This document shows positions 45,423 through 62,538 of a DNA stretch of 64,000 nucleotides, in pieces. Below the pieces are notes generated by a model. It was not told the DNA's origin, did no database searches, and saw nothing but the letters and a program-made list of their open reading frames with translations. Numbering within the stretch: the stretch's first letter is position 1; each line of letters starts with the position of its first letter. The DNA is from Streptomyces sp. NBC_01217. Its GTDB lineage: Bacteria > Actinomycetota > Actinomycetes > Streptomycetales > Streptomycetaceae. A program made the position numbers and the translations under genes. Where the stretch lies: the NCBI RefSeq assembly GCF_035994185.1, contig NZ_CP108538.1, positions 682,001-746,000 on the forward strand, in the 5' to 3' direction.

Positions 45423-47114
<1,692 letters not shown>

Positions 47115-47286: not shown

Positions 47287-48333
47287 TCACTGCCGGCGAG
47301 CGGACGTCGACTCCCGTACGACCAGCTTCGGCCGGATCAGGAGTGACCGTCCCGCCGCGGGCGCCGAGTCGATCCGTGCCCGCAGCTGCTGGAACGTCTC
47401 CGCGGCCATCTCCGGCAGCGGCTGGCGCACCGTCGTGAGCGGGGGTTCGAAGAGGTCGGCGAGGAGGATGTCGTCGAAGCCGACCACGGAGACGTCCTGC
47501 CCCGCGGTGAGCCCGGCGTCCTTGGCGCCCCGGCAGATCCCGATCGCGCACATGTCGTTGATGGCGACGAACGCGGTGGGCGGGCGGGGTCCGCCGAGGA
47601 GTTCCCTCGCCGCGTTCCGCCCCAGTTCCGCCGCGTCCTTGTCACCGAACTCGGCGGTGTCGGCGCCGGGCCAGACGATCGCGTCGGCCGGATCGAGACC
47701 GGCCGACTCCAGGGCGGCCCGGAAGCCGCGCAGTCGCTCGCGGCGGTTGACGCTGTTGACCGAGCCGGAGACGAACGCCAGTCGGCGGTGGCCGAGTTCG
47801 ATCAGATGACTGGTGGCGAGCTCGGCGCCCATCGCGTTGTCGACGCTGATCGAGGCAAGTGACGGCGGGTCGCCCGCCTGCGCCGTCCGGTCGAAGGCGA
47901 CCATCTTCAGTCCGCGGCTGAGCAGCGGCGTCACATGGTCGAGCGAGGGCAGCGAGGAGCAGAGCACCACTCCGCTGACCCCGTCCGCGAGCAGTTCCTC
48001 GCCGTACTTGAGCTCGCGGGCCGGATCGCGCTCGCTGTTGCAGAGCAGTACGTGATAGCCCTCGGTGAGCGCGATGGCCTCCAGCTCACGGGCGAGCGCC
48101 CCCCAGAAGGGGTTGGCGACGGACGGCACGATGAGACCGATGACCTTGATGCGGCCGGTGCGCAGCATCCGGGCGGCGCGGTTGGGCCGGTAGCTGAGCT
48201 GCTCGATCACCTGCTCCACGCGGGCCAGGGTGGCCGCCTGCATACGGTCCGTACGCCCGTTGAGGACGTTGGAGACCGTGCTCGCGGAGACCCCCGCGGC
48301 CTCCGCGACCTGATGGATCGTTACCCCGCTCAT
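47287..48333 (-). CDS. LacI-family transcriptional repressor
   Basis: A 348-residue regulator from ATG 48333. The N-terminal helix-turn-helix and hinge are VTIHQVAEAAGVSASTVSNVLNG and YRPNRAARMLRTGR. The periplasmic-binding-like sensor domain runs from IGLIVPSVANPFWGALAREL to VVGFDDILLADLFEPPLTTVRQP. It is divergent from the polysaccharide operon. Two near-identical AGTG(T/C)ATCGATTTAC sites in the 226-base gap (48367-48384 and 48472-48489) are its likely targets, giving autoregulation and repression of the operon until a sugar inducer is present. Confidence 0.92.
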   Translation of the reverse strand: MSGVTIHQVAEAAGVSASTVSNVLNGRTDRMQAATLARVEQVIEQLSYRPNRAARMLRTGRIKVIGLIVPSVANPFWGALARELEAIALTEGYHVLLCNSERDPARELKYGEELLADGVSGVVLCSSLPSLDHVTPLLSRGLKMVAFDRTAQAGDPPSLASISVDNAMGAELATSHLIELGHRRLAFVSGSVNSVNRRERLRGFRAALESAGLDPADAIVWPGADTAEFGDKDAAELGRNAARELLGGPRPPTAFVAINDMCAIGICRGAKDAGLTAGQDVSVVGFDDILLADLFEPPLTTVRQPLPEMAAETFQQLRARIDSAPAAGRSLLIRPKLVVRESTSARRQ

Positions 48334-48366
48334 GCCACCTCCGGTTCGGAACGCATCTGACCTTGC

Positions 48367-48384
48367 CAGTGTATCGATTTACTG
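48367..48384. promoter_or_regulatory. LacI-type operator O1
   Basis: CAGT-GT-ATCGAT-TT-ACTG: 14 of 18 positions are symmetric around the central CG pair, typical of LacI-family sites. It lies 33 bases upstream of the repressor's own start. Confidence 0.7.
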
Positions 48385-48441
48385 AACTCTGTTCACCGGT
48401 ACACCCGTTAACACCCCTGAAAATTCATGTGCATCAGCTGT

Positions 48442-48471
48442 TGACGCCCCTCTCGGCGCGTTCTTAGCATC
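48442..48471 (+). promoter_or_regulatory. Promoter of the polysaccharide-utilisation operon
   Basis: TTGACG (48442-48447), an 18-base spacer and TAGCAT (48466-48471), close to the Streptomyces vegetative consensus. Operator O2 begins at the next base, so repressor binding would block initiation. The leader to ATG 48560 would be about 80 bases. Confidence 0.65.
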
Positions 48472-48489
48472 AGTGCATCGATTTACCAG
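48472..48489. promoter_or_regulatory. LacI-type operator O2
   Basis: CAGTGCATCGATTTACCA repeats 15 bases of O1 with one change (AGTGCATCGATTTAC). It directly follows the -10 hexamer at 48466-48471. Confidence 0.7.
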
Positions 48490-48559
48490 TGCTTCTCAGT
48501 CATGACTGGGTTGCCTTCGCTGAATCGATCCACAGCCTCCACCTCAAGAGGGGTGCCCC

Positions 48560-49828
48560 ATGGAACTCAAAAGACGGTCGCTGCTTGCTGCCATCGGCGC
48601 CGGGACCGCTGCCGCCGCTCTCGGCGGGTGCGGCACCGGTACTTCGACGGCCGGCTCCGCCAATGGCCCCGCCGAGGGCGAGATCACGCTGCTCACGCCG
48701 ATCTACGAAGGTGCCGACGGCAAGACGCTGCTGGAGAAGGAGATACTCGGCGGGTTCCGGAAGAAGTACCCGGACGTCAAGGTGAACGTGGACTACACCA
48801 CGTACGCCCAGCTCAACGAGAAGATCACCACGGGGCTTGCGGGCGGTCTGCTGCCCGACGTGCTGATGATGGGCGTGGGCTGGATCCCGCCGTTCGCGGC
48901 GAAGAAGGCGATCGCCGAGCTGCCCGAGAGGTTCGCCACCGCGCACGACTACGAGAAGCGGGTGCTGGAGCCGTCCCGGTACGACGGAAAGCTGTACGCG
49001 CTGCCGGTCGTCCTCGACACCCGCATCGTCGTCTACCGCAAGGACCACTTCGCCGAGGCCGGCATCAGGAAGACCCCGGCGAACTGGGCCGAACTACGCG
49101 CGGTGGCCAAGCAGTTGACCAAGGACGGCCGGATCGGATTTGACCCGTTCTCCATCGATCTGCGCCAGTGCTGGGAGACCTTCCTCTTCGCCAACGGCGG
49201 CCGGCTGTTCAGCACGGACGGCAAGAAGGTGCTGTTCACCGACAACCGCGGAGTCGAGGCGCTGCAGTTCTTCAAGTACCTGATCAAGGACGGCTCCGCC
49301 GACTACGCCAAGAAGACGGACGCCGGTGCCCCGTCCAACGTACAGACCGGCAGGGCGTCGATGATGATGACCACCAGCGCCCTGTGGAAGCAGGTCGGGG
49401 ACCAGACCCCGGACCTCCTCAAGGACGACAAGCTCGGTGCGTTCATCCTCGCCAACCGCAGGCCCGCGATGCTCCAGGGCGGCACGCTCGTCACCCAGTC
49501 CGCGAGTTCCAAGCACCCGGCGGCGGCCCGTGCGCTCGTCGAGTACCTCGCGACGCCTGAGTCCATCCTCGGCGCGGCCAGGCAGCGCGGCTCCGTGCCC
49601 GGGCTGAAGGATCTCAGCGACACCGGCTATGTGAGGGAGAACAAGTTCGTCGATCTCTCCCTGCAGAGCATGGGCGACGCCTGTTCGGAGGGCGGCACCG
49701 CGGCCTGGATGGAGATCCGCGAAAAGATCAAGCCCACGCTGGAGCCCGCGATCGTGGGCGGCCAGTCCGCGAAGGACGCCATCGCGGAACTCGGCCGGCT
49801 CGCCGAGGCCGCCATCGGCCGGATGTGA
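48560..49828 (+). CDS. ABC sugar-transport substrate-binding lipoprotein
   Basis: A 422-residue lipoprotein from ATG 48560 (AGAGGGG upstream). Signal with twin basic residues (ELKRRSLLAAIG) and lipobox LGGC (Cys24, the lipidation site). The rest matches family 1 extracellular sugar-binding proteins: EITLLTPIYEGADGKTLLEKEIL, GLAGGLLPDVLMMGVGWIPPFA, and PSNVQTGRASMMMTTSALW. It captures an oligosaccharide outside the membrane for the two permeases that follow. First gene of the 11-gene operon, directly under the LacI operator and promoter. Confidence 0.93.
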   Translation: MELKRRSLLAAIGAGTAAAALGGCGTGTSTAGSANGPAEGEITLLTPIYEGADGKTLLEKEILGGFRKKYPDVKVNVDYTTYAQLNEKITTGLAGGLLPDVLMMGVGWIPPFAAKKAIAELPERFATAHDYEKRVLEPSRYDGKLYALPVVLDTRIVVYRKDHFAEAGIRKTPANWAELRAVAKQLTKDGRIGFDPFSIDLRQCWETFLFANGGRLFSTDGKKVLFTDNRGVEALQFFKYLIKDGSADYAKKTDAGAPSNVQTGRASMMMTTSALWKQVGDQTPDLLKDDKLGAFILANRRPAMLQGGTLVTQSASSKHPAAARALVEYLATPESILGAARQRGSVPGLKDLSDTGYVRENKFVDLSLQSMGDACSEGGTAAWMEIREKIKPTLEPAIVGGQSAKDAIAELGRLAEAAIGRM

Positions 49829-49840
49829 GGACCCGTCACC

Positions 49841-50809
49841 GTGGGAGCGACATCCGTATTGAAGGCGCGGCCCGCACGGCCCCCCTCCCCCTCTCAGCAC
49901 ACTGTCGCGAAGAAGCGCACCGGCAGGGCACCCACCGGCCCCGGGCGCCGCAGGCAGCGCGCCGGGATGCTGATGGTGGCGCCCGCACTGCTGCACGCCT
50001 CGCTCTGGATCGGCGTGCCGGTCGTCGCGTCGGTGGTTCTGGCCTTCACGAAGTACGACGTGCTGACGGCGCCGCAGTTCGTGGGTCTGGACAACTTCCG
50101 GGACATGATGGGCGACGCGGTCTTCCGCAAGTCCGTCGTCAACACCGTCGTCTACACCTTCTTCACCGTGCCGTTCGGCATGATGCTGGGGCTGCTGACG
50201 GCCCTGGCGCTGCACACCGGGCTGAAGGCGCGGGGCGTCTTCCGTACCGCGGTCTTCCTTCCCCAGGTGACGGCGACCGTCGCGATCGCGCTCGTCTGGC
50301 TGTGGATCTACAACCCGGGCAACGGGCTGCTGAACACACTCCTGTCGTTCCTCGGGATCGACGGCCCGGCCTGGCTGTCGTCCACGTCGTGGGCGATGCC
50401 CTCGGTGATCCTGGTCGGCATCTGGCAGGGCATCGGCATGAAGATGCTCATCTACCTGGCCGCGCTGCAGTCCCTGCCAAAGGAACTGTACGAGGCGGCT
50501 TCGGTGGACGGCGCCTCAAGGGTGCGGCAGTTCTTCTCGATCACGCTGCCGCTGCTGAAGCCCGCCACGTTCTTCGTGCTCATCACCTCGATGATCAGCG
50601 CGTTCCAGTCCTTCGACCAGATCTACATCCTGACCGACGGCGGCCCCGCCAACAGCACCACGATGATGACGTATGAGATCTACAAGTCCGCCTTCCGGGA
50701 GTTCCGCGTCGGCTACGCCTGCGCGCAGTCACTGGTGCTGTTCGTGCTGCTGATGGGCTTCACCCTGGTCAACCGGCGGATCATGGGAGGCACCCGTGGC
50801 CACAACTGA
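49841..50809 (+). CDS. ABC sugar-transport permease (MalF-type)
   Basis: A 322-residue membrane protein from GTG 49841, 12 bases after the lipoprotein stop. It has six hydrophobic segments after a basic cytoplasmic N-terminus and the EAA loop of binding-protein-dependent permeases, KELYEAASVDGASRVRQFFSITLPLLKP. It pairs with the next permease. No ATPase gene is in the operon; Streptomyces carbohydrate importers of this type share the genome-wide ATPase MsiK. Confidence 0.93.
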   Translation: MGATSVLKARPARPPSPSQHTVAKKRTGRAPTGPGRRRQRAGMLMVAPALLHASLWIGVPVVASVVLAFTKYDVLTAPQFVGLDNFRDMMGDAVFRKSVVNTVVYTFFTVPFGMMLGLLTALALHTGLKARGVFRTAVFLPQVTATVAIALVWLWIYNPGNGLLNTLLSFLGIDGPAWLSSTSWAMPSVILVGIWQGIGMKMLIYLAALQSLPKELYEAASVDGASRVRQFFSITLPLLKPATFFVLITSMISAFQSFDQIYILTDGGPANSTTMMTYEIYKSAFREFRVGYACAQSLVLFVLLMGFTLVNRRIMGGTRGHN

Positions 50810-51719
50810 GCTGCACAGGCCCGGTGCCGACGGGAAGGACCGGACCCGCACGAAGGGCAGGCCGCTCCCCGTGGGCCGGATCGTGCTCTATGTGACCCTG
50901 TCCGTCGTTTCGCTGCTGATGATGGTGCCGTTCGTCTGGATGGTGCTCACCTCGCTCAGGACGCCCGTCGAGATCGCCTCGCAGGACGCCGGACTGCTGC
51001 CGGAACACTGGGAGTTCGGCAACTACATCGACGCGCTGAAAGCGGCGCCGTTCGCGACGTACGCGCGCAACAGCTTCATCATCGCGTTCAGCCACACCGT
51101 CATCAATGTGGTGGTCGCGTCGATGGCCGGCTACGCGCTGGCGCGGATCAGGTTCCGGGGCAGCGAGGTCATCTTCTACCTCTTCATCGCCGCGCTGATG
51201 ATCCCGACGTACACCAAGGTGCTGCCGGAGTTCCTGATCGTCCGCTTCATGCCGCTGGCCGGCGGGAACGACATCTTCGGCCAGGGCGGCAGCGGCTGGC
51301 TGGACTCCTGGTGGGCGCTGATCGTTCCCGGGGCCGTCACGCCGTTCGCGGTCTTCCTCTTCCGCCAGTTCTATCTGGACCTTCCGGTGGAACTGGAGGA
51401 GGCGGCCAGGCTCGACGGACTCGGCGAGTTCCGGATCTACGCCCGGATCATGACACCGCAGGTCAAGCCCGCGCTCACCACCGTGGCACTGCTGACCTTC
51501 GAGTCGTCGTGGAACAACTTCCTGTGGCCGCTGCTGGTGACCCGTACGGACAGCCTGCGGGTCATCCAGGTCGGGCTCTCCGTCTTCAAGACGGAGAACG
51601 GCACCCAGTGGCACTTCCTGATGGCCGGCACCACGCTGGCCACCCTTCCCATGGTCGTTCTCTTCCTCATCGGCCAGCGCTACTTCGTGCAGGGGTTCGC
51701 AACCGCCGGTCTCAAGTGA
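50796..51719 (+). CDS. ABC sugar-transport permease (MalG-type)
   Basis: A 307-residue membrane protein from GTG 50796, overlapping the previous gene by 14 bases. Six hydrophobic segments; the EAA loop is VELEEAARLDGLGEFRIYARIMTPQVKP. It forms the translocation pore with the MalF-type partner. Confidence 0.93.
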   Translation: MATTELHRPGADGKDRTRTKGRPLPVGRIVLYVTLSVVSLLMMVPFVWMVLTSLRTPVEIASQDAGLLPEHWEFGNYIDALKAAPFATYARNSFIIAFSHTVINVVVASMAGYALARIRFRGSEVIFYLFIAALMIPTYTKVLPEFLIVRFMPLAGGNDIFGQGGSGWLDSWWALIVPGAVTPFAVFLFRQFYLDLPVELEEAARLDGLGEFRIYARIMTPQVKPALTTVALLTFESSWNNFLWPLLVTRTDSLRVIQVGLSVFKTENGTQWHFLMAGTTLATLPMVVLFLIGQRYFVQGFATAGLK

Positions 51720-51764
51720 CCGGTTCCGGCCCCACGGGGCCGGTCATCGAAAGGGTTTCGCTTC

Positions 51765-52529
51765 ATGTCTGCTGATCTCAACGGCTCCCGCGCACTCGTG
51801 ACAGGGGCGGGCCACGGAATCGGCCGCGCCATCGCTGTCGCTCTTGCCGGGGCCGGGGCCGATGTCGCCGTCCACTACCGCTCCTGCGCCGACGAGGCCG
51901 CCGGGACCGTCTCCGCCATCGAGGCGCTGGGACGCAGGGCGAAGGCGTTCAAGGCCGATGTCACCGTGACGAACGAGGTGGACCGGCTCGTCGATGAGGC
52001 GGCCGGTTTCCTCGGCGGCCTGGACGTCCTGGTCTGCAACGCGGGCCATCTGATCGGCCGGGCCACGATCGCCGAGATGTCCGACGACCACTTCGAGCAG
52101 GTTCTCTCCACCAATCTGACGTCGACGTTCCGCACGGTGCGGGCGGCGCTGCCGTATCTGACCAAGTCCTCGGCCGGACGCATCATCACGATGTCCTCGC
52201 TGGCCGCGCACAACGGCGGCGGCCCCGGCTCGGTCGCCTACGCGGCGGCCAAGGCCGGAGTCCGCGGCTTCACCAAGGGCCTGGCCAAGGAGCTCGGCGG
52301 CACCGGCATCACGGTCAACACCGTGGCTCCCGGCTTCATCAAGGGCACTGCCTTCCACGACACGTTCACCGCGCCCGAGACGCAGCAGGCGATGGAGGCC
52401 GGCATCCCGGTCGGCCGGGCGGGCACCCCGGAGGATGTCGCCGCCGCGGTCGTGCATCTGGCGTCGCCGTCGTCCGGCTTCCTCACCGCCACCACGGTGG
52501 ACATCGACGGTGGCGTGTGGCCGCGTTGA
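51765..52529 (+). CDS. Short-chain dehydrogenase/reductase, probably of uronate catabolism
   Basis: A 254-residue classical SDR from ATG 51765. NAD(P)-binding TGAGHGIG (residues 13-20), NAG (92-94), catalytic Ser144/Ser145, Tyr159 and Lys163 (YAAAK). Such enzymes reduce 4-deoxy-5-ketouronate (DEH) to 2-keto-3-deoxygluconate, or act as KduD-like dehydrogenases, in lyase-based uronic acid pathways. The assignment to that step comes from the neighbouring lyases and is inference; other sugar or acyl substrates are possible. Its 3' end overlaps the heparinase-like gene by 13 bases. Confidence 0.85.
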   Translation: MSADLNGSRALVTGAGHGIGRAIAVALAGAGADVAVHYRSCADEAAGTVSAIEALGRRAKAFKADVTVTNEVDRLVDEAAGFLGGLDVLVCNAGHLIGRATIAEMSDDHFEQVLSTNLTSTFRTVRAALPYLTKSSAGRIITMSSLAAHNGGGPGSVAYAAAKAGVRGFTKGLAKELGGTGITVNTVAPGFIKGTAFHDTFTAPETQQAMEAGIPVGRAGTPEDVAAAVVHLASPSSGFLTATTVDIDGGVWPR

Positions 52530-54307
52530 GGCGGATCGCCCGGGAGCGGGGCGGCTGGTGGCATGCGTACGTGTGCCCGGCACACGGCGTGGAGCTCGAC
52601 CACGGTGATCTGCTCGCCGGGGTCTTCCCGGCGGACGGTGCGCGCTGTGCCTACGGCTGCCGGGTGGACGACAAGGCGGTGCGCGGTGCCTGGCTGGTGC
52701 TGTCGCACCAGGCGTGGGCGCGACGCCTTCGGGTGCTCGCCCACCGGGGCGAGCGTGCTCAGGCGGTGGCTCGGCTCGTCGAGTACGCCGGTCTGTACGC
52801 GGAACTCGCCACCGAGCGGCACGGCGAGGCACAGACCTGGATGCTGCGCGGCCGGCTCTTCCACCAGGCGCTGACCGACGCCATCTGGGCGGTCACCATC
52901 GGACACACCGTGATCACACTCGCCGAGCGGTCCATCGACGACCTGGTACCCGTCCTGCCGCTCCTCGACGATCTGGAGCGGGCCGCGCTGGACGCCCGGA
53001 ACGTGCTGACCGGTCAGGGGCATCTCGCCTCCAACTACACCGCGTGGCTCAACGCCGCCGGTGCGGCCGCGAGTCGGGGCGCCGCCGCGGCCCGTGGCCA
53101 GGAGTGGGACGGCGCGAAGCAGTGGCTGGAGGGCGAGCACGGGCTGTACGCGCATCTGCGGGTCGCGGTCGCCGATGACGGCTGGGAGTGGGAGGGCAGC
53201 ACCTACTACCACGGGTTCGTGCTGCGGGCCGCGCTGCTGGCGCTGCGCCGCACCGACCCCGCGGCCGTTCCGTCCGATGTGGTGGACGTACTGGCCTCGA
53301 TGACGGACATACTCGCGACGATCGCCACGCCGGGCGGCATCCTGCCCGCGCTGCACGACGGCCCGTATCTGCGCGGGCCGCTCGCGCTGGAGTGGCTCGA
53401 ACTGGTGGCACTCGTCCAGCAGTTGGTTCCCTCTCCCACCCTCGATGCGGTGGCGTCGCGGGCCCGCGCCGAGCTCGGCACGCAGGACGACGGGCTCGAC
53501 CGCGAGCTGGTCGGCTGGTTCGCAGGACCACCGCTGCCGGAGCGCCCGGCGCCCGCTCCGGTCACGGTGTTCCCGAGGGCCGGATACGCGGTGCTGCGCC
53601 ACGCGGGCGTCCACGCGCTGCTGGACTTCGGTCCGCACGGCGGCTCCCACGGGCACCGCGACAAACTGTCGCTGTATCTGTACGGGGACACCACGCCGTG
53701 GCAGCCCGATCCCGGTCAAGTTCCCTACGCCCACGCCCAGTTCCGTGATCTGTACGCATCCACGGAGGCGCATCCCGCCTTCCGGGTGGACAGCACTGAA
53801 CAGGCAGAGTGCGCCGGGCAGTTGCTCGGCGCGGACGGATCGTCCGTCACGGCCGAGGTGACAACAGCGTACGAAGGCGTGCGTGCCGTACGGCGGGTGG
53901 CGCTCGGCGACGGCTGTCTGATCGATCTGCTGACCCTGAGCGCCGGGGACCAGCGGCAGCTCGTCGCACAGCTGCGGCCCGGTGTCGCGCTGGACGTCCA
54001 GCTACAGGCCGCGGGCCCGGTACGCACCACCTGGTACGGCGACGAGACCCTGCACGGCTGGCACACCCACACCCCCGGCCTGTCGGTGCGACCGGTCACC
54101 CGGCCGGGGCCCGGGACCGCCGACGATCCGCAACGCATGTGTACCCGGGTCGACTTCACCGCGCAGACGGACCGGATCACCTTCGCGTCTGTGTATCAGA
54201 CGGCGTCGGCGGGCCCCGCCGTGACCGACGTACGGCTGGACGGCGAGGGGCAGTTGACGGTCGCGCTGGCCGACGGCAGCACCGCACGGTTCCGGACGGA
54301 GGACTGA
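52517..54307 (+). CDS. Heparinase II/III-like polysaccharide lyase family protein, copy A
   Basis: A 596-residue protein with GTG 52517 as first start, inside the SDR tail; TTG 52526 is an alternative. No signal peptide. The N-terminal alpha/alpha-toroid region (about 60-330) has SNYTAWLNAAGAA and WEWEGSTYYHGFVLRA; the C-terminal beta-sandwich (about 350-590) has DFGPHGGSHGHRDKLSLYLYGD, where the histidines match those of the heparinase II/III barrel. Lacking export, it probably cuts imported unsaturated oligosaccharides. Specificity is unknown. Confidence 0.82.
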   Translation: MAALRRIARERGGWWHAYVCPAHGVELDHGDLLAGVFPADGARCAYGCRVDDKAVRGAWLVLSHQAWARRLRVLAHRGERAQAVARLVEYAGLYAELATERHGEAQTWMLRGRLFHQALTDAIWAVTIGHTVITLAERSIDDLVPVLPLLDDLERAALDARNVLTGQGHLASNYTAWLNAAGAAASRGAAAARGQEWDGAKQWLEGEHGLYAHLRVAVADDGWEWEGSTYYHGFVLRAALLALRRTDPAAVPSDVVDVLASMTDILATIATPGGILPALHDGPYLRGPLALEWLELVALVQQLVPSPTLDAVASRARAELGTQDDGLDRELVGWFAGPPLPERPAPAPVTVFPRAGYAVLRHAGVHALLDFGPHGGSHGHRDKLSLYLYGDTTPWQPDPGQVPYAHAQFRDLYASTEAHPAFRVDSTEQAECAGQLLGADGSSVTAEVTTAYEGVRAVRRVALGDGCLIDLLTLSAGDQRQLVAQLRPGVALDVQLQAAGPVRTTWYGDETLHGWHTHTPGLSVRPVTRPGPGTADDPQRMCTRVDFTAQTDRITFASVYQTASAGPAVTDVRLDGEGQLTVALADGSTARFRTED

Positions 54308-54310
54308 CCC

Positions 54311-56296
54311 TTGTTGCTCTCGGCGACCCCGCCGCCCGGCCCGCGCCCCGCCCAGGAGGTCCGGCTGTACGAGGAGGCCGCCCGCCACCGCGGGCTGACC
54401 CCGCCCCGTACACACCCCCTCGCCAGCATCACCTGGCTGGGCCCCGCCGCATCCAACCCGGCGCTGGCCTTCCGGGTCGGCGGCGATCCGGCCCATCTGG
54501 CGGAGAGCCGGCGCTGGATCGAGGCAGCGGTACGGCTGCCGCACTGGGGTAGGGCCCACATGCCGGACCACGATCTGGACGCCGGCTGGCTGCTGCACCA
54601 CCTCTCGCTCGCGTACCGGTGGATCGGCGACGAACTACCGGACGGAGTACGGGCGTTGCTCCGGTACAAGCTGCTGCTCCAGGGTCGGCGGATGTATGAG
54701 TTCGCGGTGGCGAGCGAGGGCCGCTGGTGGTCGTCGTCGTACTGGCAGAACCACAACTGGATCTGTTACGCGGGTCTGGCGACGGCCGGTTATGTGCTGG
54801 GCAAGGAGGAGTGGACCGAGCGCGCCAAGGACAATCTCGGCAAGGTCCTGGATCTGATGCCCGAGGACGGTTCGCACGCCGAGGGTGTCGTGTACTGGCG
54901 CTACGGCGTGCCCTTCCTCGCCATCCATCTGGATCTCCTCCAGGAGGCGGAGGGCATCGACTGGTGGGGGCGGGGCGGTTTCCTCTCCCACACCTTCCGC
55001 TACCGGCTCCACCAGAGCGCGCCCGGTTTCGCGTTCAATGTCGACCACGGCGACTGCCACGACCGCCGCAGTGGCCACAGCGCCGGTCTGTACTACCGCC
55101 TGGCGGCCCAGTACGGCATTCCGGAGGCACAGTGGATGGGCGATCTCGCCTCGGGCGAACTGCTGTGGCAGGAGGCCGCGGAGAGCGGCGTGCGGCCCGG
55201 CATCCTTCCGGAGGCCTACCTCGAATACCTCTGGTTCGACCCGTCCGTGCCCGGCGCCCGTCCCACCGAGACCAGGGCGTTCTTCCCCGACCTCGGCCTG
55301 CTCGCGGCCCGTACCGGATGGGACGACGACGCCACGCTCGTCTCGTTCAAGGCGAGCCCCGGCGGCGGGCACAAGGCATGGGAGACCGCGGCGAAGCACC
55401 GGGCCGAGCGGGGCTGGGAGACCCTCGACCAGGGGCACCACCACCCCGATTCGGGTTCGTTCGTGCTGGTCTCGCAGGGGGCGTTCCTCGCGGTCGACGA
55501 GGGCTACAGCAATCGCAAGCGGGCGGCGCACCACAATCTGCTGCTGGTGGACGGACAGGGATACGCGGACGAGGACCGCTACCACGTCTACCGGGACATC
55601 CCGTACGAGCGGCAGGCCCGGCAGCGTGATGTGCTCGTGGATCCCGGCTGCGGCTGGGCGCACGCCACGGCGGAGATCGCCGCGATGTACGACCCCGGGC
55701 TCGGGGTGCGGCGGCTGGACCGGACGCTGGTGTTCACCCCGTCGGGGCGGCTCGTACTGCTGGATCTCGCCGAGGCGGACACGGAACGGGAGTGGACGTT
55801 CCTGCTCCAGACGGACCGGCCGACCGAGCCGCAGCCGGACGGCAGCCGGCTGATCCGGTCCGGGGCGGCCTCGGCGCTGGTGCGGCAGTTCGCGCCGCTC
55901 GACGGTCCGGTCGTCTCCGGGGCCACCGAGGTCGAGGCCAATCCGACGTCGAGCACGCCGGAGCTGCGCCTGACCCGCACGCTGCACACGCTGCGTGCGA
56001 GGACCGCGCGGTCCTCGCACGGTCTCTTCCTCACCGCGATCACCCCGGGCCCGGCAGCGGTCGCAGCCGAGCGGGTCGTGTGTGCGAAGGGCGAGGGCGT
56101 CACATTCGGCGAGGAGACCGTGCTCCTCTCCCCCGTCACCCGCCGCATCCGTACCGCCGCCGTCTCTGCCGATGCGGCGGCGGTCCTGCTGGGCGGCGAA
56201 GGCAGTGCCCCTTATGCGGTGGCGGCCACCCGGCTGGAGCTGGACGGCCGCGTGCTGCTCGACGTCCCGGAGCCGTACACAGGAAAGGTCGGCTGA
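54311..56296 (+). CDS. Heparinase II/III-like polysaccharide lyase family protein, copy B
   Basis: 661 residues from TTG 54311, 3 bases after copy A; a TTG start is unusual, and the second TTG follows directly. The toroid half has YWQNHNWICYAGLATAGYVLG and EDGSHAEGVVYWRYGVPF; the beta half has HHHPDSGSFVLVSQGAFLAVDEGYS and AHHNLLLVDGQG, the histidine-rich barrel signature. No signal peptide. Little direct similarity to copy A, so it is probably a second specificity rather than a recent duplicate. A cytoplasmic lyase for oligosaccharides is inference. Confidence 0.8.
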   Translation: MLLSATPPPGPRPAQEVRLYEEAARHRGLTPPRTHPLASITWLGPAASNPALAFRVGGDPAHLAESRRWIEAAVRLPHWGRAHMPDHDLDAGWLLHHLSLAYRWIGDELPDGVRALLRYKLLLQGRRMYEFAVASEGRWWSSSYWQNHNWICYAGLATAGYVLGKEEWTERAKDNLGKVLDLMPEDGSHAEGVVYWRYGVPFLAIHLDLLQEAEGIDWWGRGGFLSHTFRYRLHQSAPGFAFNVDHGDCHDRRSGHSAGLYYRLAAQYGIPEAQWMGDLASGELLWQEAAESGVRPGILPEAYLEYLWFDPSVPGARPTETRAFFPDLGLLAARTGWDDDATLVSFKASPGGGHKAWETAAKHRAERGWETLDQGHHHPDSGSFVLVSQGAFLAVDEGYSNRKRAAHHNLLLVDGQGYADEDRYHVYRDIPYERQARQRDVLVDPGCGWAHATAEIAAMYDPGLGVRRLDRTLVFTPSGRLVLLDLAEADTEREWTFLLQTDRPTEPQPDGSRLIRSGAASALVRQFAPLDGPVVSGATEVEANPTSSTPELRLTRTLHTLRARTARSSHGLFLTAITPGPAAVAAERVVCAKGEGVTFGEETVLLSPVTRRIRTAAVSADAAAVLLGGEGSAPYAVAATRLELDGRVLLDVPEPYTGKVG

Positions 56297-56298
56297 TC

Positions 56299-56901
56299 AT
56301 GCAGGCAACCCTCTCGTCCGGCCGGCCGACACTGCTGCGGCGGCTGGAGTTCGTGGCCTACCCGGCCGCCGCCGGGGCCGCGTTCGCCGTGCTGTCGCTC
56401 GGTGTCGTGACCTGGCTGCCCGCACTCGCCGCGATGGGTCATGCCCTGCAGCGGTGGCGGGCGGAGGGCGACAGCCACTGCTTCACCGGCACGTTCAGCG
56501 CCTTCCCGCAGTACTGGCGGGCCCTGTGGCGGCACTCGCTGGCGTCCACCGCGGCGGGGCTCGTCCTGTCCGCCAACACCGTCCATCTGCTGGGCCGTAC
56601 GGAGCCGTGGACGTTCGTACTGCTCGCCGCGCAGGTCGGCATCGCGGCCGTGGTGGTCATCCATCATGTGGCACTCGCGGCCGAGGCGGGCCGGTTGCCG
56701 CACGGCACGGTCCGCACCTGGTCGCGCGGTGCGCTGGCCCTCGGCTTCGGGTCCGCGGCCCGTGGCACCGCACTGCTCGGCGCGGTGATCTCCGCCGCGC
56801 TGCTCTCCCTCGTCCTACCGCTGGGCCCCCTGCTCCTCGGCCCCAGCATTCCCGTACTGCTCGCTCTGTCCTTCGCAGACCCCAGGAGGCACACCCCATG
56901 A
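56299..56901 (+). CDS. YesL-like (DUF624) membrane protein
   Basis: A 200-residue membrane protein from ATG 56299, 2 bases after the previous stop. Four or five hydrophobic segments; the first contains LEFVAYPAAAGAAFAVLSLGVVTWLPALAAMGHAL, followed by a region with CFTGTFSAFPQYWRALWRHS. YesL/DUF624 proteins accompany polysaccharide-utilisation operons in Gram-positive bacteria, often with sugar ABC transporters; the function is unknown. Confidence 0.78.
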   Translation: MQATLSSGRPTLLRRLEFVAYPAAAGAAFAVLSLGVVTWLPALAAMGHALQRWRAEGDSHCFTGTFSAFPQYWRALWRHSLASTAAGLVLSANTVHLLGRTEPWTFVLLAAQVGIAAVVVIHHVALAAEAGRLPHGTVRTWSRGALALGFGSAARGTALLGAVISAALLSLVLPLGPLLLGPSIPVLLALSFADPRRHTP

Positions 56902-57977
56902 GCCGTGTACTGCGCACCACTCTCGGCGCCGCGCTGGCCGTCGGCGCCCCGCTCGCCGTCCCCCTGCCGTCCGTGGCCGCCGAAGCCGCCACCGCGTACT
57001 ACGTGTCGCCGACCGGAAGCGACTCCAACGCCGGTACGTCGGCCGGCGCCCCGCTCGCCACGATCCAGAAGGCGGTCGATCTGGCACCGACGGGCGCGGT
57101 GGTGAACCTCGCCGCCGGAACGTACCGGCAGGATGTCGTGACCAAGCGCTCCGGAGTCACCGTCACCGGCCCGTCGAACGCCGTGGTGAAGGGGGCGGGC
57201 GACGCCCGGATCATTCAGGTGCAGCACGACTCGACGACGCTCAGCGGTTTCACCGTCGACGGGCTGCACGGGTCGTCCACCGATGTGTCGGGGTACCGCC
57301 TCAAGCTCATCTATGTCATGAGCACGACTCCCGGCAATGGTGTGGGCGGTCTGCGCATCACCGGAATGACGCTGAAGAACGCCGCCGACGAATGTCTGCG
57401 CGTGCGCTATCTGGTGACCGGCGCCGACATCTCCGACAACACGATCACCGACTGCGGGGTCGCCGACTTCCGATTCGGCGGCGGCGGCAAGAACGGCGAG
57501 GGCATCTATCTCGGTACGGCACCCGAGCAGCAGGGCGCGAACGGCGCCCCGGACGCGGCCCCCGACATCAGCAGGAACAACCGCATCCACCACAACACCA
57601 TCGCCACCCGGGGCAACGAGTGTGTCGATGTGAAGGAGAACTCGACCAACAACTACGTCGAGTACAACGACTGCAGCGGCCAGAAGGACGCCGGCTCCGG
57701 CGGTCTGGACGCGCGCGGCAGCGGCAACATCTTCCGCTACAACACCATTCACGACAACGTCGGCGCGGGCATCCGGCTCGGCGGTGACACCGCGACCGAC
57801 GGCATCGACACCAGCGTCTACGGCAACACCATCACCGACAACGCGGGCGGCGGCATCAAGTTCATGCGCACCCCGCAGGGACCGGTGTGCACCAACACGA
57901 TGAGCGGCAACACCGGTGGCGACGCGGTCGGCACCTACGGCAGCGCGTACGACCCGACCGGTGCGTGCCCCCGGTGA
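56898..57977 (+). CDS. Secreted right-handed beta-helix protein (pectate-lyase-like)
   Basis: A 359-residue exported protein from ATG 56898 (AGGAGG upstream; overlaps the previous stop by 4 bases). Signal peptide 1-28 (ending SVAAEA). The mature start YYVSPTGSDSNAGTSAGAPLATIQKAVDLA and the rungs SDNTITDCGVADF, HHNTIATRGNECVDVKENS and YGNTITDNAGGGIKF are typical of PL6/PL9-like and other polysaccharide-acting beta-helices. A catalytic Lys/Arg/Ca site could lie in NECVDVKE, but I cannot confirm it. It is probably the extracellular lyase or binding protein for the first attack. Confidence 0.8.
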   Translation: MSRVLRTTLGAALAVGAPLAVPLPSVAAEAATAYYVSPTGSDSNAGTSAGAPLATIQKAVDLAPTGAVVNLAAGTYRQDVVTKRSGVTVTGPSNAVVKGAGDARIIQVQHDSTTLSGFTVDGLHGSSTDVSGYRLKLIYVMSTTPGNGVGGLRITGMTLKNAADECLRVRYLVTGADISDNTITDCGVADFRFGGGGKNGEGIYLGTAPEQQGANGAPDAAPDISRNNRIHHNTIATRGNECVDVKENSTNNYVEYNDCSGQKDAGSGGLDARGSGNIFRYNTIHDNVGAGIRLGGDTATDGIDTSVYGNTITDNAGGGIKFMRTPQGPVCTNTMSGNTGGDAVGTYGSAYDPTGACPR

Positions 57978-59125
57978 GCGGGCAGGGGCCCGCGAGACGC
58001 GGGGTGCTGACGGCGGCGGCCGGTCTGGCGGCGGTCGCCGCGACGGCGCCGGGGGCGCAGGCCGCCGGGGCTTCGAACAGTGGCTCGGGCCGGTCGCGCT
58101 GGACGACGTCCTGGGCGACCGCGCAGACCGCGCCGACCGCCGCCGACACGGTGGCGAGCGCCGGGCTGACCGACGGCACGTTCACCGCCCACGTACGGCT
58201 GTCGGCGGGCGGAGCCGTCCGGCTGCGCTACGGGCACGCCTTCGGCACGGTCCCGGTCCTGATCGGCCCGGTGACGGCGGCCGGCCGGCCGGTGACGTTC
58301 GGCGGGCGCCGGCAGGCGTGGATCGCGGCGGGCGCCTCACTGACCAGTGACCCGGTAGTCGGTCTGCGCACCGCCGAGGCCGCACGGCTGACGGTGGAGA
58401 CCCGGCTGCCCGGACCCACCGGGCCGCTGTCCTTCCACCGCAACACCCATGCCTCGCACTCCGTCGACGGTGCACGCACCACATCGGTGTTCCTGCTGAC
58501 CGGCGTCGAGGTGACGGGTGCGCACGGGCCCGTGGTCGCGGTGCTCGGCGACTCCTTGGCGGAGGGCGTCGGCACCCCGGACGACGCCGATCTGCGCTGG
58601 CCCGACCAACTGGCCCGGCGCCTGCCCGGTTCGGCCGTCGCCAATCTCGGCATCAGCGGCAACCGGGTGCTGCTGGACGACGCCCGGTTCGGGCCGGGCG
58701 GACAGGCCCGCTTCGACCGCGATGTGCTGTCGCTGCCGGGGCTGCGGACCGTACTCGTCCATCTCGGCGTCAACGACCTCCAGCAGCCACCGAGCCAGAC
58801 CGATCCGGCGCGCGTCCTGGCCGGGTACCGGCAACTGGTGCTGCGCGCCCGTGACGCCGGACTGCGGGCGGTCGGCGCGACCGTCACACCGTTCGGGGGC
58901 TGGACCCGCTGGACACCGGAGCTGGAAGCGGTACGGCAGCAGATCAACGCGGCGGTACGGACCGGCCGGCTCTTCGACGCCGTGACCGACTTCGACGCGG
59001 CGCTGCGCGACCCGGAACGCCCGTCGCGGCTGCTGCCCGCGTACGACAGCGGCGACGGACTGCACCCCAACCCCGCCGGTCACGCCGCGCTCGCCGCGGC
59101 CGTCGACCGCCGACACCTTCTGTGA
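57974..59125 (+). CDS. Secreted SGNH/GDSL hydrolase (carbohydrate esterase type)
   Basis: A 383-residue protein from GTG 57974, overlapping the previous stop by 4 bases. Tat-like signal (PARRGVLTAAAGLAA). After a beta-rich N-terminal half comes the SGNH domain: nucleophile Ser in AVLGDSLAEG, Gly in NLGISGN, Asn in VHLGVND and the Asp/His dyad in DGLHPNPAGH. SGNH enzymes of polysaccharide operons remove acetyl groups from sugars. This suggests that the target polymer is O-acetylated. Confidence 0.88.
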   Translation: MSGQGPARRGVLTAAAGLAAVAATAPGAQAAGASNSGSGRSRWTTSWATAQTAPTAADTVASAGLTDGTFTAHVRLSAGGAVRLRYGHAFGTVPVLIGPVTAAGRPVTFGGRRQAWIAAGASLTSDPVVGLRTAEAARLTVETRLPGPTGPLSFHRNTHASHSVDGARTTSVFLLTGVEVTGAHGPVVAVLGDSLAEGVGTPDDADLRWPDQLARRLPGSAVANLGISGNRVLLDDARFGPGGQARFDRDVLSLPGLRTVLVHLGVNDLQQPPSQTDPARVLAGYRQLVLRARDAGLRAVGATVTPFGGWTRWTPELEAVRQQINAAVRTGRLFDAVTDFDAALRDPERPSRLLPAYDSGDGLHPNPAGHAALAAAVDRRHLL

Positions 59126-59135
59126 GGGCCGCATC

Positions 59136-61559
59136 ATGAACCCAGCAACCACCCCGGGCACCACCCGGCGCGCCGTACTCGCCGGGGCGGCGGCGCTCGG
59201 CGCAGCCGCCGCCCTGCCGCTCGCACTCACCACGGGCACCGCGCACGCGGCCGCCGGGGACGCCGTCGTCGATGACGCCAAATCCCTGCGCACCCGCTGG
59301 CACACCCTGCTCACCGGCGGCCCCGGTCTCGATCTGACGGACCAGCGGATCGCCGCGGCCGTGGCCAGGGCCGGCAGGGCCGCGACCACCGCGGCCAAGG
59401 GCCTCGACCCGGCCCGTACCGACGGGCTGTTCCCCGATCTGACCAGCACCACGCTGTCCAACCACGTCACGACGTCGTTCAAACGCCTTGCCACGATCGC
59501 CACCGCGTGGGCCGTCCCGGGCACCGCGCAGTACGGCGACACCGCGCTGCGCGATCTGCTGCTGGCGGGCATCGACTGGATGCTGACGAACCGTTACGGC
59601 CCCGGTCACCCCCGGTTCGACAACGACTGGGACTGGGAGATCGGTTCCGCACTCGCCCTCAACGACACGGCCGTGCTGCTGTACGACGCGCTCGGGTCGG
59701 AGCGGCTCGGCCGGATCACCACGGCCGTAGGGCACTACACGCCCGACCCGAACCTCTGGCGGGCCGACCGGCAGATCGCGACCGGCGCCAACCGGGTGTG
59801 GATCTCCACCGTCGTCGCCGTCAACGCCGTGCTCACCGGCAACGGCGACGATCTGGCCCGGGTCCGTGACGCTCTTTCGGACGTCGAGGGTTCGGGTGCC
59901 AACAGCGTCCTCGCCTTCAACGACGCCGGCAACGCGGCGGAGGGCACCGGCGAGGGCTTCTACTCCGACGGTTCGTTCCTCCAGCACTACAAGCACCCGT
60001 ACAACGGCGGGTACGGCAAGGAGCTGCTGAACAACCTCTCCCGGCTGCTGAACCTCCTCGCCGGTACGGCATGGACGATCACCGACCCCGATCTCGACAA
60101 CGTCCGCAGCTGGGTCGACGACGGCTTCGACCCGCTGATGGCTCGCGGCGATGTGATGGCGTCGGTGTGCGGGCGAGAGATCGCCCGCCCCAGCAAACAG
60201 GGACATGTCTCGGCGCAGACGGTCATCGAGGCGGTCGTACGGCTGATACCGAGCTTCCCCGGCGAGACGGCCGACCGGTTCACCGCCCTGGTCAAGCAGT
60301 GGATCGCCGAGGACACCTACCGGGACTTCCTCGCCGTCACCGACCTCGCCTCGCTCGTCGCCGCCCGGCAGGTCATCGCCTCCCCCGTCCCCGCACGCGG
60401 GCCGCTCGTCGCACACAAGCAGCACCCGCGGATGGACAAGGCCGCCCACCACCGCCCCTCCTTCGCGCTCGGCATCTCCGCATACTCCTCGAGGATCTAC
60501 AACTACGAGTCGATACAGAACGAGAACCTGCACGCCTGGCACCTCTCCGACGGCATGGTCCTGCTCTACACCGACGACCTCGGGCACTACAGCGAGGACT
60601 ACTGGCCCAGCGTCGACCCGGCCCGGCTCCCCGGCACCACCGTCATCGCGGGCCGTCCCGCGGACGCGGCCGGGCAGCGCACCACCAGCACGGCCGCCTG
60701 GGCGGGCGGCGCCGCGCTGCCGGGCACGACGCTCGGGGCGTACGGCATGGAGCTGCGCGCGTACGGAAGTCCGCTGCACGGTCTGAAGAGCTGGTTCTGC
60801 CTGGACGACGTGATCGCCTGCGTCGGCTCGGGGATCACCGCCGACGCGGGCACGGCCGAGACGGTCGTGGAGAACCGCAAGCTCCGGGATCCGGCGGCGG
60901 CCCTGCTCGTCAACGGCACGGCCGCGCCCACGGACGCCGGCTGGTCGGCCCGGCTCGACCGGGTGCAGTGGCTGCATGTCGCAGGGACCGGCGGCTACAT
61001 CTTCCCTGAGCCCGCCACGCTCAACGGCCTGCGCGAGGAACGCACCGCGACCTGGCGCGACATCAACCTCAAGTACGGCACGGACACCCCCGTCACCCGC
61101 CCGTATCTGACGCTGTGGCAGGACCACGGCACCGCGCCGAGCGGAGCCGGCTACTTCTGGCTGCAGGCACCGGCGGCCTCCGCCGAGCGTACGCAGCGGT
61201 GGTCGTCCGCACCCCCGGTGAAGGCGATCGCCCGCTCCACCGCCGTGCACGCGGTACGCCGCTGCGCGGACGGGCTGATCGCCGCGAACTTCTGGACCGC
61301 GGGCACGGCACAGGACCTGTCCTCGGACGGTCCCGCCTCGGTGCTCGTACGACCGGTCGGAAGGACGGTGAGGGTGTCGCTCTCCGACCCGACCCAGCTG
61401 CGGTCCTCGGTGGTCCTGGACCTGGCGCGCCGCGGACTGGCCGTCGCCTCGGCCGATCCGGGTGTCGGCGCCGAGCCCACCGGCAACGGCATCCGGATCA
61501 CCGCCGACACCGCCGGACGCCATGGCGCAACCCTCAACCTCACCCTGAAGTGGAGCTAG
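59136..61559 (+). CDS. Secreted polysaccharide lyase family 8 (hyaluronate/chondroitin/xanthan lyase type)
   Basis: An 807-residue protein, the standard PL8 size. Twin-arginine signal (TTRRAVLAG, Arg11-Arg12; cleavage near TAHA). The alpha/alpha toroid (about 45-390) contains FDNDWDWEIGSALALNDT with Asn176, HYKHPYNGGYG with His284 and Tyr293, and CGREIAR with Arg347 and Arg351; these align with the Asn-His-Tyr-Arg catalytic set of the family. The central beta-sandwich (about 430-680) contains NYESIQNENLHAWHLSDGMVLLYTDD. It breaks uronic-acid-containing polymers by beta-elimination outside the cell. Which of hyaluronan, chondroitin or xanthan is used cannot be told from sequence alone. Confidence 0.93.
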   Translation: MNPATTPGTTRRAVLAGAAALGAAAALPLALTTGTAHAAAGDAVVDDAKSLRTRWHTLLTGGPGLDLTDQRIAAAVARAGRAATTAAKGLDPARTDGLFPDLTSTTLSNHVTTSFKRLATIATAWAVPGTAQYGDTALRDLLLAGIDWMLTNRYGPGHPRFDNDWDWEIGSALALNDTAVLLYDALGSERLGRITTAVGHYTPDPNLWRADRQIATGANRVWISTVVAVNAVLTGNGDDLARVRDALSDVEGSGANSVLAFNDAGNAAEGTGEGFYSDGSFLQHYKHPYNGGYGKELLNNLSRLLNLLAGTAWTITDPDLDNVRSWVDDGFDPLMARGDVMASVCGREIARPSKQGHVSAQTVIEAVVRLIPSFPGETADRFTALVKQWIAEDTYRDFLAVTDLASLVAARQVIASPVPARGPLVAHKQHPRMDKAAHHRPSFALGISAYSSRIYNYESIQNENLHAWHLSDGMVLLYTDDLGHYSEDYWPSVDPARLPGTTVIAGRPADAAGQRTTSTAAWAGGAALPGTTLGAYGMELRAYGSPLHGLKSWFCLDDVIACVGSGITADAGTAETVVENRKLRDPAAALLVNGTAAPTDAGWSARLDRVQWLHVAGTGGYIFPEPATLNGLREERTATWRDINLKYGTDTPVTRPYLTLWQDHGTAPSGAGYFWLQAPAASAERTQRWSSAPPVKAIARSTAVHAVRRCADGLIAANFWTAGTAQDLSSDGPASVLVRPVGRTVRVSLSDPTQLRSSVVLDLARRGLAVASADPGVGAEPTGNGIRITADTAGRHGATLNLTLKWS

Positions 61560-61563
61560 ACCC

Positions 61564-62538
61564 TTGCTGTTCGACATGGACCTGGACCGGCTGCGCGTAT
61601 ACCGGCCGGAGCCGGAGGAACCTGCCGACTTCGATGCCTTCTGGGAGAAGACGCTCGACGAGACCGCCCGCCACCCGCTGGACGCCGAATTCATCCCGTA
61701 CGACGCCGGGTTCGTGACCGTCGATGTGCTCGATGTGACGTTCCGGGGCTGGGGCGGGCAGGCCGTGAAGGCGTGGCTGCTGCTACCGAAGGCGCGCTCG
61801 GGTCCGCTGCCCGCCGTGGTGCAGTACATCGGCTACAACGGCGGCCGGGGCGTTCCGTACTCCTGGCTGACCTGGAGCGCGCTGGGGTACGCGCATCTGG
61901 TCATGGACAACCGGGGCCAGGGCGGCGGCGGCAGGAACACCGCCGACACCCCGGACATCGGCCCGGACGGGCACGGCTCGTCCTCGCCCGGTTTCCTGAC
62001 CCGCGGCATCGAGGACCCGTATCGCCACTACTACCGGCGGCTGATCACCGACGCGGTGCGGGCGGTGGACGCGGCGAAGGCCCATGAGTCGGTGGACGCG
62101 TCCCGGGTCGCGGTGCTCGGGGGCAGCCAGGGCGGCGGGCTCGCCCTGGCCGTCGCCGGGCTGCGGGACGACATCGCGGCGGCCGTCGCCGATGTGCCCT
62201 TCCTCTGCCACTACCGGCGCGCCTCGCAGATCACGGACGCCGGACCGTACGCGGAGATCGCCCGCTGGCTGTCCGGGCACCGCTTCCGGATCGACGAGGC
62301 GATGGAGACCCTGTCCTACTTCGACGGGGTCAACTTCGCCGCCCGGGCGAGCGCCCCGGCGTGGTTCTCGGTCGGTCTGATGGACCGGATCTGCCCGTCG
62401 TCCACGGCGTTCGCCGCATATCACCGCTATGCGGGTCCGGCGGAGATCGAGGTGTTCACGTACAACGGGCACGAAGGCGGCGCGGAGTACGACCTGCCGC
62501 GCAAACGCGAGGCGTTGCGCGGCGTGTTCGGCCGCTAG
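61564..62538 (+). CDS. Acetyl-xylan esterase / cephalosporin-C deacetylase family esterase (AXE1, CE7-like)
   Basis: A 324-residue cytoplasmic alpha/beta-hydrolase; TTG 61564 is 4 bases after the lyase stop, and ATG 61576 is an alternative. CE7 marks: RGQ in MDNRGQGGG, nucleophile Ser188 in VLGGSQGGGLALA, Asp in GLMDRICP and His in YNGHEGG. CE7 enzymes remove acetyl groups from imported oligosaccharides. Last gene of the operon; it converges on an oxidoreductase gene with 10 bases between stops. Confidence 0.92.
   Translation: MLFDMDLDRLRVYRPEPEEPADFDAFWEKTLDETARHPLDAEFIPYDAGFVTVDVLDVTFRGWGGQAVKAWLLLPKARSGPLPAVVQYIGYNGGRGVPYSWLTWSALGYAHLVMDNRGQGGGGRNTADTPDIGPDGHGSSSPGFLTRGIEDPYRHYYRRLITDAVRAVDAAKAHESVDASRVAVLGGSQGGGLALAVAGLRDDIAAAVADVPFLCHYRRASQITDAGPYAEIARWLSGHRFRIDEAMETLSYFDGVNFAARASAPAWFSVGLMDRICPSSTAFAAYHRYAGPAEIEVFTYNGHEGGAEYDLPRKREALRGVFGR

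Follow-up and report, generated by a model that had tools for sequence, protein, structure and literature searches.

The question raised by the locus described here is which polymer it serves. The locus lies in a 64,000 nt stretch of Streptomyces sp. NBC_01217 (the window; positions C1:682001-746000, where C1 is contig NZ_CP108538.1, one of the two that make up the 9.03 Mb genome). It consists of 12 genes: a divergent gene for a LacI-family repressor on the minus strand, followed by 11 co-directional genes on the plus strand (48560-62538). The closest relatives of the window genes are from Streptomyces. An earlier note on this DNA had read the genes as a complete LacI-controlled operon for an acetylated, uronic acid-containing polysaccharide, and as a general description this stands. 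More specifically, the genes probably form a LacI-repressed operon for the breakdown of a beta-1,4-linked polyuronate that is O-acetylated, with the acetylated, mannuronate-rich alginate of the bacterial type as the most likely polymer. Alginate or polymannuronate is favored because of the comparative context, the profiles of the two heparinase-fold lyases, HepA and HepB, and a published Streptomyces PL8 lyase. It should be noted that the candidate polymers of the earlier note (hyaluronan, chondroitin, xanthan, gellan, heparosan and acetylated pectin) did not include this substrate.

To find related loci, the window HepB was used in a scan that gave 155 confirmed stretches; the best 80 were kept and represent 78 loci, thus the set leans to near relatives. 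Collinearity can be assessed where at least 8.5 kb precedes HepB, which is the case in 70 loci. Of these, 69 retain the order LacI(-)-SBP-PermA-PermB-SDR-HepA-HepB, a Chloroflexi locus (L079) being the exception, and the association of the seven core genes exceeds chance. In the window the core consists of the repressor (47287-48333, minus strand; Pfam LacI 1.7e-15, Peripla_BP_3 1.2e-34), which has a homologue in the same place in 69/70 loci, and of six plus-strand genes. These encode the solute-binding lipoprotein (SBP) of an ATP-binding cassette (ABC) importer (48560-49828; SBP_bac_1 2.6e-38), the permeases PermA (49841-50809) and PermB (50796-51719), both with BPD_transp_1, a short-chain dehydrogenase/reductase (SDR; 51765-52529; adh_short 1.3e-53), proposed from its context to be a 4-deoxy-5-hexoseulose uronate (DEH) reductase, HepA (52517-54307; Hepar_II_III_C 5e-15) and HepB (54311-56296).

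The genes beyond the core vary. Downstream content was compared in 73 loci, each with a downstream stretch of 7 kb or more, and five shorter loci were dropped. A PL8 lyase gene is present in 34 loci, always with a CE7 esterase gene (34/34), in most cases with an SGNH hydrolase gene of above 45% identity (29/34), and never with PL7 or PL39 (0/34). In the window, all on the plus strand, the SGNH/GDSL hydrolase (57974-59125; Lipase_GDSL_2 1.5e-28) is a secreted, putative O-acetyl esterase, PL8 (59136-61559) is a secreted protein with a twin-arginine translocation (Tat)-type leader, proposed to depolymerize alginate or polyuronate with a preference for mannuronate, and the CE7 (AXE1) acetyl esterase (61564-62538; AXE1 3e-104) is cytoplasmic. 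The AXE1 profile (348.6 bits, residues 2-309) covers the whole of the latter protein, which places it in the CE7/AXE1 family.

PL8 is absent from 39 loci, and 12 of these have PL7 and/or PL39 (PL7 in 10 loci and PL39 in 3, with both in L052). The PL7 gene of L052 is about 8 kb downstream of HepB and that of L031 lies beyond LacI. The identity of these genes is illustrated by the PL7 of L036 (Pfam Alginate_lyase2, 8e-44) and the PL39 of L051, which scores 346 bits against the alginate lyase chains 6jph/6jp4; L033, a PL7/PL39 locus, also has a gene of the chondroitinase-B/PL6 family. Thus alginate-lyase families are found in about one third of the relatives that have no PL8, and this supports the alginate reading. 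The PL7-/PL39-type loci L036 (Nocardiopsis CNT312), L048 (Streptomyces verrucosisporus) and L051 (Phytoactinopolyspora) show the same core order as the window, but have PL7 or PL39 where the window has PL8-CE7, and in several of these loci a gene resembling 2-keto-3-deoxygluconate (KDG) kinase is nearby. Among 43 genomes searched, PL7 is present in 11, i.e., in 11 of 31 that are not of the PL8 type and in none of the 12 that are (eight Streptomyces, including the window genome, and four Kribbella). CE7 without PL8 is found in four loci (L066, L075, L076 and L078). Additional PL39 matches (L050 and one PL7 locus) from an unmasked search were not reproduced in a masked one and were dropped, since PL39 resembles HepB itself. 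In a class survey of 394 genomes, HepB is found in five; members of the window PL8 clade (92-100% identity) are found in two, both with HepB, and in the remaining 56 PL8-positive genomes all PL8 proteins are of at most 45% identity. The survey agrees with the alginate reading, with numbers too small for a co-occurrence test.

The window PL8 displays all three domains of the family, i.e., the N-terminal alpha-toroid (Lyase_8_N 2.7e-65), the super-sandwich (Lyase_8 3.5e-66) and the C-terminal domain (Lyase_8_C 1.2e-15). Among the 120 relatives listed of 246, identities are at least 56% or else 42% and below, with nothing between, thus the window PL8 belongs to a separate clade; among the matches listed this clade spans Streptomyces, Kribbella, Nonomuraea, Actinocatenispora, Isoptericola and others. 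Clade members of at least 720 aa (110 out of 115 among the matches listed) were aligned, and the catalytic positions of the window PL8 were located by alignment to xanthan lyase (1j0m). The catalytic residues N219, H284, Y293, R347 and R351 are invariant in 110/110, and the absence of PL8 catalytic residues, which the earlier note had named as grounds for abandoning its reading, is thus not found. Xanthan lyase shares the catalytic Asn, His and Tyr with the window PL8, but its Tyr315 and Arg612, which we take to be its recognition residues (PDB 2e24 is titled R612A), are replaced in the clade by Ser353 (109/110) and Lys646 (108/110). The Streptomyces coelicolor and Arthrobacter glycosaminoglycan (GAG) lyases follow among the solved chains with 332 bits, and the mannuronic acid lyase chain 7r2x, presumably that of the fungal enzyme PsMan8A, is distant with 44 bits. 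A second PL8 gene of the genome (C1:6445524-6446767), is about 38-40% identical to the window PL8; its matches are divided over two open frames, one of 446 and one of 406 aa, and it looks disrupted in the assembly. A 769-aa Streptomyces protein (P0324) joins a part similar to PL8 residues 34-576 to a part similar to CE7 residues 126-323; it apparently arose either through a deletion that fused the two neighboring genes or through an assembly error.

Important for the substrate is Aly16-1, a PL8 enzyme from Streptomyces sp. CB16, which the available text describes as an endolytic, mannuronate (M)-preferring alginate lyase (Zeng et al. 2024, PMC11596371). According to the same text it acts on seven of nineteen polysaccharides, with a stronger nuclear magnetic resonance signal on alginate, and it has the three-domain layout of the window PL8 and a similar length (805 aa, from 2418 bp, vs 807 aa). 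The terms "operon", "gene cluster" and "acetylated" are not in the main text of that paper. Aly16-1 was compared through seven published landmark residues. With the landmarks in register from an upstream GTG start, the proteins of L020, L022 and L025 match six of seven and P0306 matches five. Counted from their own starts, the other listed clade members match at most three (the window PL8 one), and 20 control PL8 paralogues of other genomes, with all starts tried, match at most two. When the landmarks may be shifted jointly and six residues are counted, five are matched by 26 of the 110 clade members, four by 29 and three or fewer by 55; the controls match at most three. Aly16-1 thus probably, but not certainly, belongs to the window clade, because its landmarks fit this clade better than the control paralogues. 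Specificity differs between PL8 clades, since a Microbacterium PL8 with 34% identity to Aly16-1 is reported in the available text not to cut alginate (PMC12666371). PsMan8A, an exo-acting polymannuronate lyase of a fungal PL8 clade, displays in the published part consulted the type of activity proposed here for the window PL8 (PMC7911691).

HepA and HepB are related to two families of oligo-alginate lyases. In profile searches against PDB, PL17 chains are the best seven of 11 matches of HepA (9.7e-20 to 5.9e-14, 15-18% identity), and with a structure model of HepA (mean predicted local distance difference test score, pLDDT, 92.5) they occupy Foldseek ranks 1-8. The Pfam match of HepB to Hepar_II_III_C is only 0.008, below cut-off; PF16332 is the precomputed Pfam domain of nearly all HepB relatives among the 120 matches listed. 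HepB matches dermatan-sulfate epimerase (DSE; 1.8e-31) and the PL15 lyase Atu3025 (3.7e-22), and its model (pLDDT 89.8) has PL15 chain 3a0o at Foldseek rank 1. The invariant N147-H148, Y195 and H376 of HepB are at or within one column of His311, Tyr365 and His531 of PL15 in an alignment read by hand, and DSE fits equally. Thus, by profile and by Foldseek, PL17 (Alg17c, 4nei) and PL15 (Atu3025, 3a0o) rank first or nearly first among the relatives of the two proteins, but at only about 15-20% identity. Residues 16-48 of HepA (window 52562-52660) include an invariant His16 and Cys20 and a nearly invariant His23, Cys44 and Cys48, a possible metal site; we know of no such feature in PL17. The PDB matches of the SDR include the DEH reductases 4w7i and 4tkl.

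According to the available text of PMC12336832, alginates from microbes usually carry O-acetyl groups on mannuronate, and this fits the presence of two esterases in the operon. Outside the cell, the SGNH esterase would strip acetyl groups and PL8 would cleave the polymer by beta-elimination, with unsaturated oligouronides as products. The ABC importer would take up the oligomers, driven by a shared ATPase coded elsewhere; in Streptomyces the ATPase shared by such importers is of the MsiK type. Within the cell, CE7 may strip the remaining acetyl groups, and the two dissimilar lyases, HepA and HepB, would convert the oligomers to unsaturated monomer, which opens to DEH. The SDR would then reduce DEH to KDG. 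The division into an extracellular stage with PL8 and an intracellular stage with the lyases, SDR and CE7, as put forward earlier, agrees with the leaders, which were read by eye. Tat-like RR leaders are seen in PL8 (TTRRAVLAG) and SGNH (ARRGVLTAA), SBP has RR and an LGGC lipobox, and the beta-helix protein encoded upstream of SGNH has a Sec-like leader; by the same inspection no export signal is seen in HepA, HepB, CE7 or SDR.

The operon is not complete, as had been claimed, in that no ATPase is found by Pfam domains among the 12 genes, as the earlier note had itself stated of the importer core, and neither a KDG kinase nor a 2-keto-3-deoxy-6-phosphogluconate (KDPG) aldolase gene is within it. 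The lower pathway is not part of the operon, as the earlier note had said. Two candidates elsewhere in the genome could supply the last steps. One is KDG-kinase-like (2175050-2176093), with scores under the NCBIfam cut-offs, and the other, at a distance of about 0.9 kb on the same strand, matches KDPG aldolase (2176962-2177495). A gluconolactonase-like gene lies between them, with a mandelate-racemase-type (enolase-superfamily) enzyme, a GntR regulator and an SDR beyond. A second, stronger KDPG aldolase match is at 2702539. In the relatives, KDG-kinase-like PfkB genes are present in 15/73 loci, including one PL8 locus (L023), and a KDPG aldolase gene adjoins HepB in L069. The small gene c25 of L036/L031 was considered as an aldolase and dropped; it appears acetyltransferase-like by eye, with weak matches in the window genome.

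A number of observations weigh against alginate. PL7 and PL39 are absent from 27 of the 39 loci without PL8, and the KDG-kinase-like genes that were profile-checked (L023, L031, L036 and L069) score below the NCBIfam cut-offs where these were used. The kinase/aldolase pair at 2.175-2.177 Mb may serve another sugar acid, given the adjoining gluconolactonase, enolase-superfamily and GntR genes. The SDR is, by its sequence, not distinguishable from FabG-like reductases, as FabG-like chains score higher than the DEH reductases and NCBIfam places it closest to a FabG subfamily. In the VIA-align comparison heparinase III ties with PL17 for HepA, and heparinase II is first, level with DSE, for HepB; DSE is also the best sequence match of HepB, ahead of PL15. 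HepA has Ser172-Asn173-Tyr174 where PL17 Alg17c has His-Asn-His; a His next to the neutralizing Asn is tied to alginate activity, and a lone Asn, as in HepA, is listed for heparinase III, in the available text of PMC12088678. With respect to PL8, the nearest solved chain is xanthan lyase (472 vs 332 bits), the window protein fits only four of six Aly16-1 landmarks after the shift, and the fit of six of seven in the best members depends on the upstream GTG start. Residue 429 is His for Asn, and the clade tail is 47 residues as compared with 43 in Aly16-1. Aly16-1 itself also cuts hyaluronan, chondroitin sulfates and xanthan, according to the published part consulted (PMC11596371).

An acetylated glucuronan (beta-1,4-polyglucuronate), or another soil exopolysaccharide rich in glucuronic acid (GlcA), is to be considered, although we regard it as rather unlikely. 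PL8, HepA and HepB would then cut GlcA links and feed the same DEH-SDR-KDG route. PL8 enzymes classically cut at GlcA, HepA has the lone Asn and not the alginate-linked His, both esterases fit, and the downstream monomer is identical. However, the flanking lyases of the relatives are of PL7, PL39 and PL6, families with alginate lyases, an argument that is weakened for PL7 by the glucuronan lyases in its subfamily 4 (available text of PMC7911691). In addition, the strongest signal of Aly16-1 is on alginate, and the available text of PMC11596371 does not mention glucuronan as a substrate. Cleavage of hyaluronan and chondroitin sulfate by the same enzyme (same text), together with the PL8 and PL35/DSE-like folds typical of GAG enzymes, would suit a GAG operon, as the earlier list of polymers implied. 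Such an operon is unlikely, as no unsaturated glucuronyl hydrolase, hexosaminidase or sulfatase is among the 12 genes, the core accompanies alginate-lyase families in some relatives, two esterases would be superfluous for GAGs, and the genome has the separate, apparently disrupted PL8 mentioned above.

It is quite improbable that the operon is a scavenging system for polyuronates in general, with a PL8 of wide specificity that feeds a general importer and oligouronide lyases. The seven substrates of Aly16-1 (PMC11596371) and the PL35 GAGases related to HepB, which act on hyaluronan, chondroitin sulfate and heparan sulfate, and one of them on alginate (available text of PMC12088678), would fit such a role; but there is one dedicated repressor, perfect operator matches are in a promoter only here, and the PL8-CE7 pairing in 34/34 loci suggests a single acetylated target. 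Least probable of all, and very much so, is a xanthan operon with PL8 as the side-chain xanthan lyase. Xanthan is an acetylated polymer and the closest solved homologue of PL8 is a xanthan lyase, but the Tyr315/Arg612 equivalents differ in almost all members of the clade, no glycoside hydrolase is in the operon, and two intracellular heparinase-fold lyases would not be expected.

Acetylated alginate thus remains the favored substrate, and the locus is best explained as the PL8+CE7 form of an actinobacterial alginate operon, of which some relatives carry PL7, PL39 or PL6 instead. A HepB tree was made from 54 rows, which comprise the window and a selection from the 78 loci, by a quick method with support from the SH-like approximate likelihood ratio test (SH-aLRT) only. 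Streptomyces loci are found in two places: one is a PL8 group, which includes the window, S. atratus and S. anulatus among others, and the other is a PL7 group that also contains Nocardiopsis. The PL8 loci of Kribbella are placed with Microlunatus and Promicromonospora loci, in which no PL8 is seen. PL8 presence requires three label changes, and the starred branches force at least two; therefore the secreted lyase was swapped more than once, or gained and then lost. As the Streptomyces and Kribbella PL8 groups do not form one clade, one gain with losses and two gains are indistinguishable. In Streptomyces poriferorum P01-B04 contigs, two versions of the locus are seen, L032 and the PL8-type L081. 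The HepB of L032 is 58% identical to that of the window, similar to PL7-type loci, and the contig piece stops before any secreted lyase.

Tentatively, modular exchange may have retargeted a conserved operon, with the PL7/PL39/PL6 loci directed to plain (algal) alginate and the PL8/CE7 loci of window-type Streptomyces and Kribbella, mostly with SGNH, to the O-acetylated bacterial alginate of pseudomonad/Azotobacter biofilm. The PL8 clade, with the diagnostic Ser353/Lys646, would then be an unrecognized specificity group, and HepA and HepB the founders of unassigned lyase families. The prediction is that PL8/CE7 loci prefer acetylated bacterial alginate and PL7/PL39 loci plain alginate. The operon would provide a physiological home for the published Streptomyces PL8 alginate lyase, which came without a genetic context, and substrates are proposed for two lyase groups that carry no annotation other than "heparinase II/III family" or "hypothetical protein". 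If this is true, many Streptomyces can digest biofilm alginate, and their enzymes are candidates for acetyl-tolerant alginate degradation. No published description of the operon was found in a search limited to open-licence papers.

The control region is consistent with the single LacI-controlled unit that had been proposed. A sigma-70-like promoter, TTGACG-N18-TAGCAT (48441-48470, plus strand), is the only one found in the LacI-SBP intergenic region (mean 0.2 in shuffled sequences). Three predicted operators accompany it: O1, GTGTATCGATTTAC (48369-48382), a recurring motif; O2, GTGCATCGATTTAC (48473-48486), palindrome-like and beginning directly after the -10 hexamer; and O3, CTGAATCGATCCAC (48520-48533), with one mismatch to the pattern. 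The three ATCGAT-centered sites at a divergent promoter have a layout that would suit LacI autoregulation. ATCGAT-centered sites are present in 48/71 LacI-SBP intergenic regions, and of 32 loci with ATCGATTTAC, window included, 30 have a TTGAC-type hexamer, N18 and TANNNT directly before the operator, L059 and L060 being the exceptions. With at most one mismatch the operator pattern is found at 20 sites in the genome, three of them in the operon promoter, as compared with one site for a control pattern; the pattern is palindromic and every site is reported on both strands. Perfect matches number three, two in the operon promoter and the third (6386175) within a predicted reading frame. Nine of the 17 sites elsewhere were inspected. 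Seven are inside predicted reading frames and two, each with a single mismatch, are intergenic, one (2196206) before a 1146-aa frame and the other (8296963) before a hydrolase-like gene with an NCBIfam match below cut-off. As judged from these nine, a wider LacI regulon is unlikely. Because the promoter-operator layout is fixed across loci and the perfect pattern is rare in the genome, the probable mode of control is repression of the single promoter through a blocked start, with LacI presumably bound to operators that overlap the start and released by an oligouronide.

The junctions from SBP to CE7 are, in order, 12, -14, 45, -13, 3, 2, -4, -4, 10 and 4 bases, and depend on the start codons chosen. 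Nine of ten are thus overlaps or gaps of at most 12 bases, in line with the tight packing reported earlier, but the 4-base overlaps, given as "several", are exactly two. The reading frames and Pfam domains agree with the earlier gene list of a repressor and 11 co-directional genes. The two remaining plus-strand genes encode a DUF624/YesL-like protein (56299-56901; DUF624 9e-5, 23.0 bits, just under the 24.2 cut-off) and the secreted right-handed beta-helix protein (56898-57977; DUF1565 2e-10, Beta_helix 2.7e-8), with only weak PDB matches. CE7 is followed after 10 bases by the end of a convergent gene for an FAD oxidoreductase-like protein, therefore the operon ends at CE7. Directly behind the LacI gene is a GH10 xylanase gene with CBM2 (window 45423-47114), with a nearby homologue in seven PL8-type Streptomyces loci.

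Among the relatives, a major facilitator superfamily (MFS) transporter gene is found after or near the core in 15 loci. It replaces the post-core genes after DUF624 in L056-L065, L067, L068, L073 and L074, mostly Micrococcales, and is also present in L031; its place suggests uptake of ready-made oligomers or monomers. Ordinary neighbors (GlgB/maltokinase, SpoU, MATE, purple acid phosphatase and others) were set aside. In a Plantibacter locus (L070:12611-16083), a Hen1/Pnkp RNA-repair pair directly follows the core operon.

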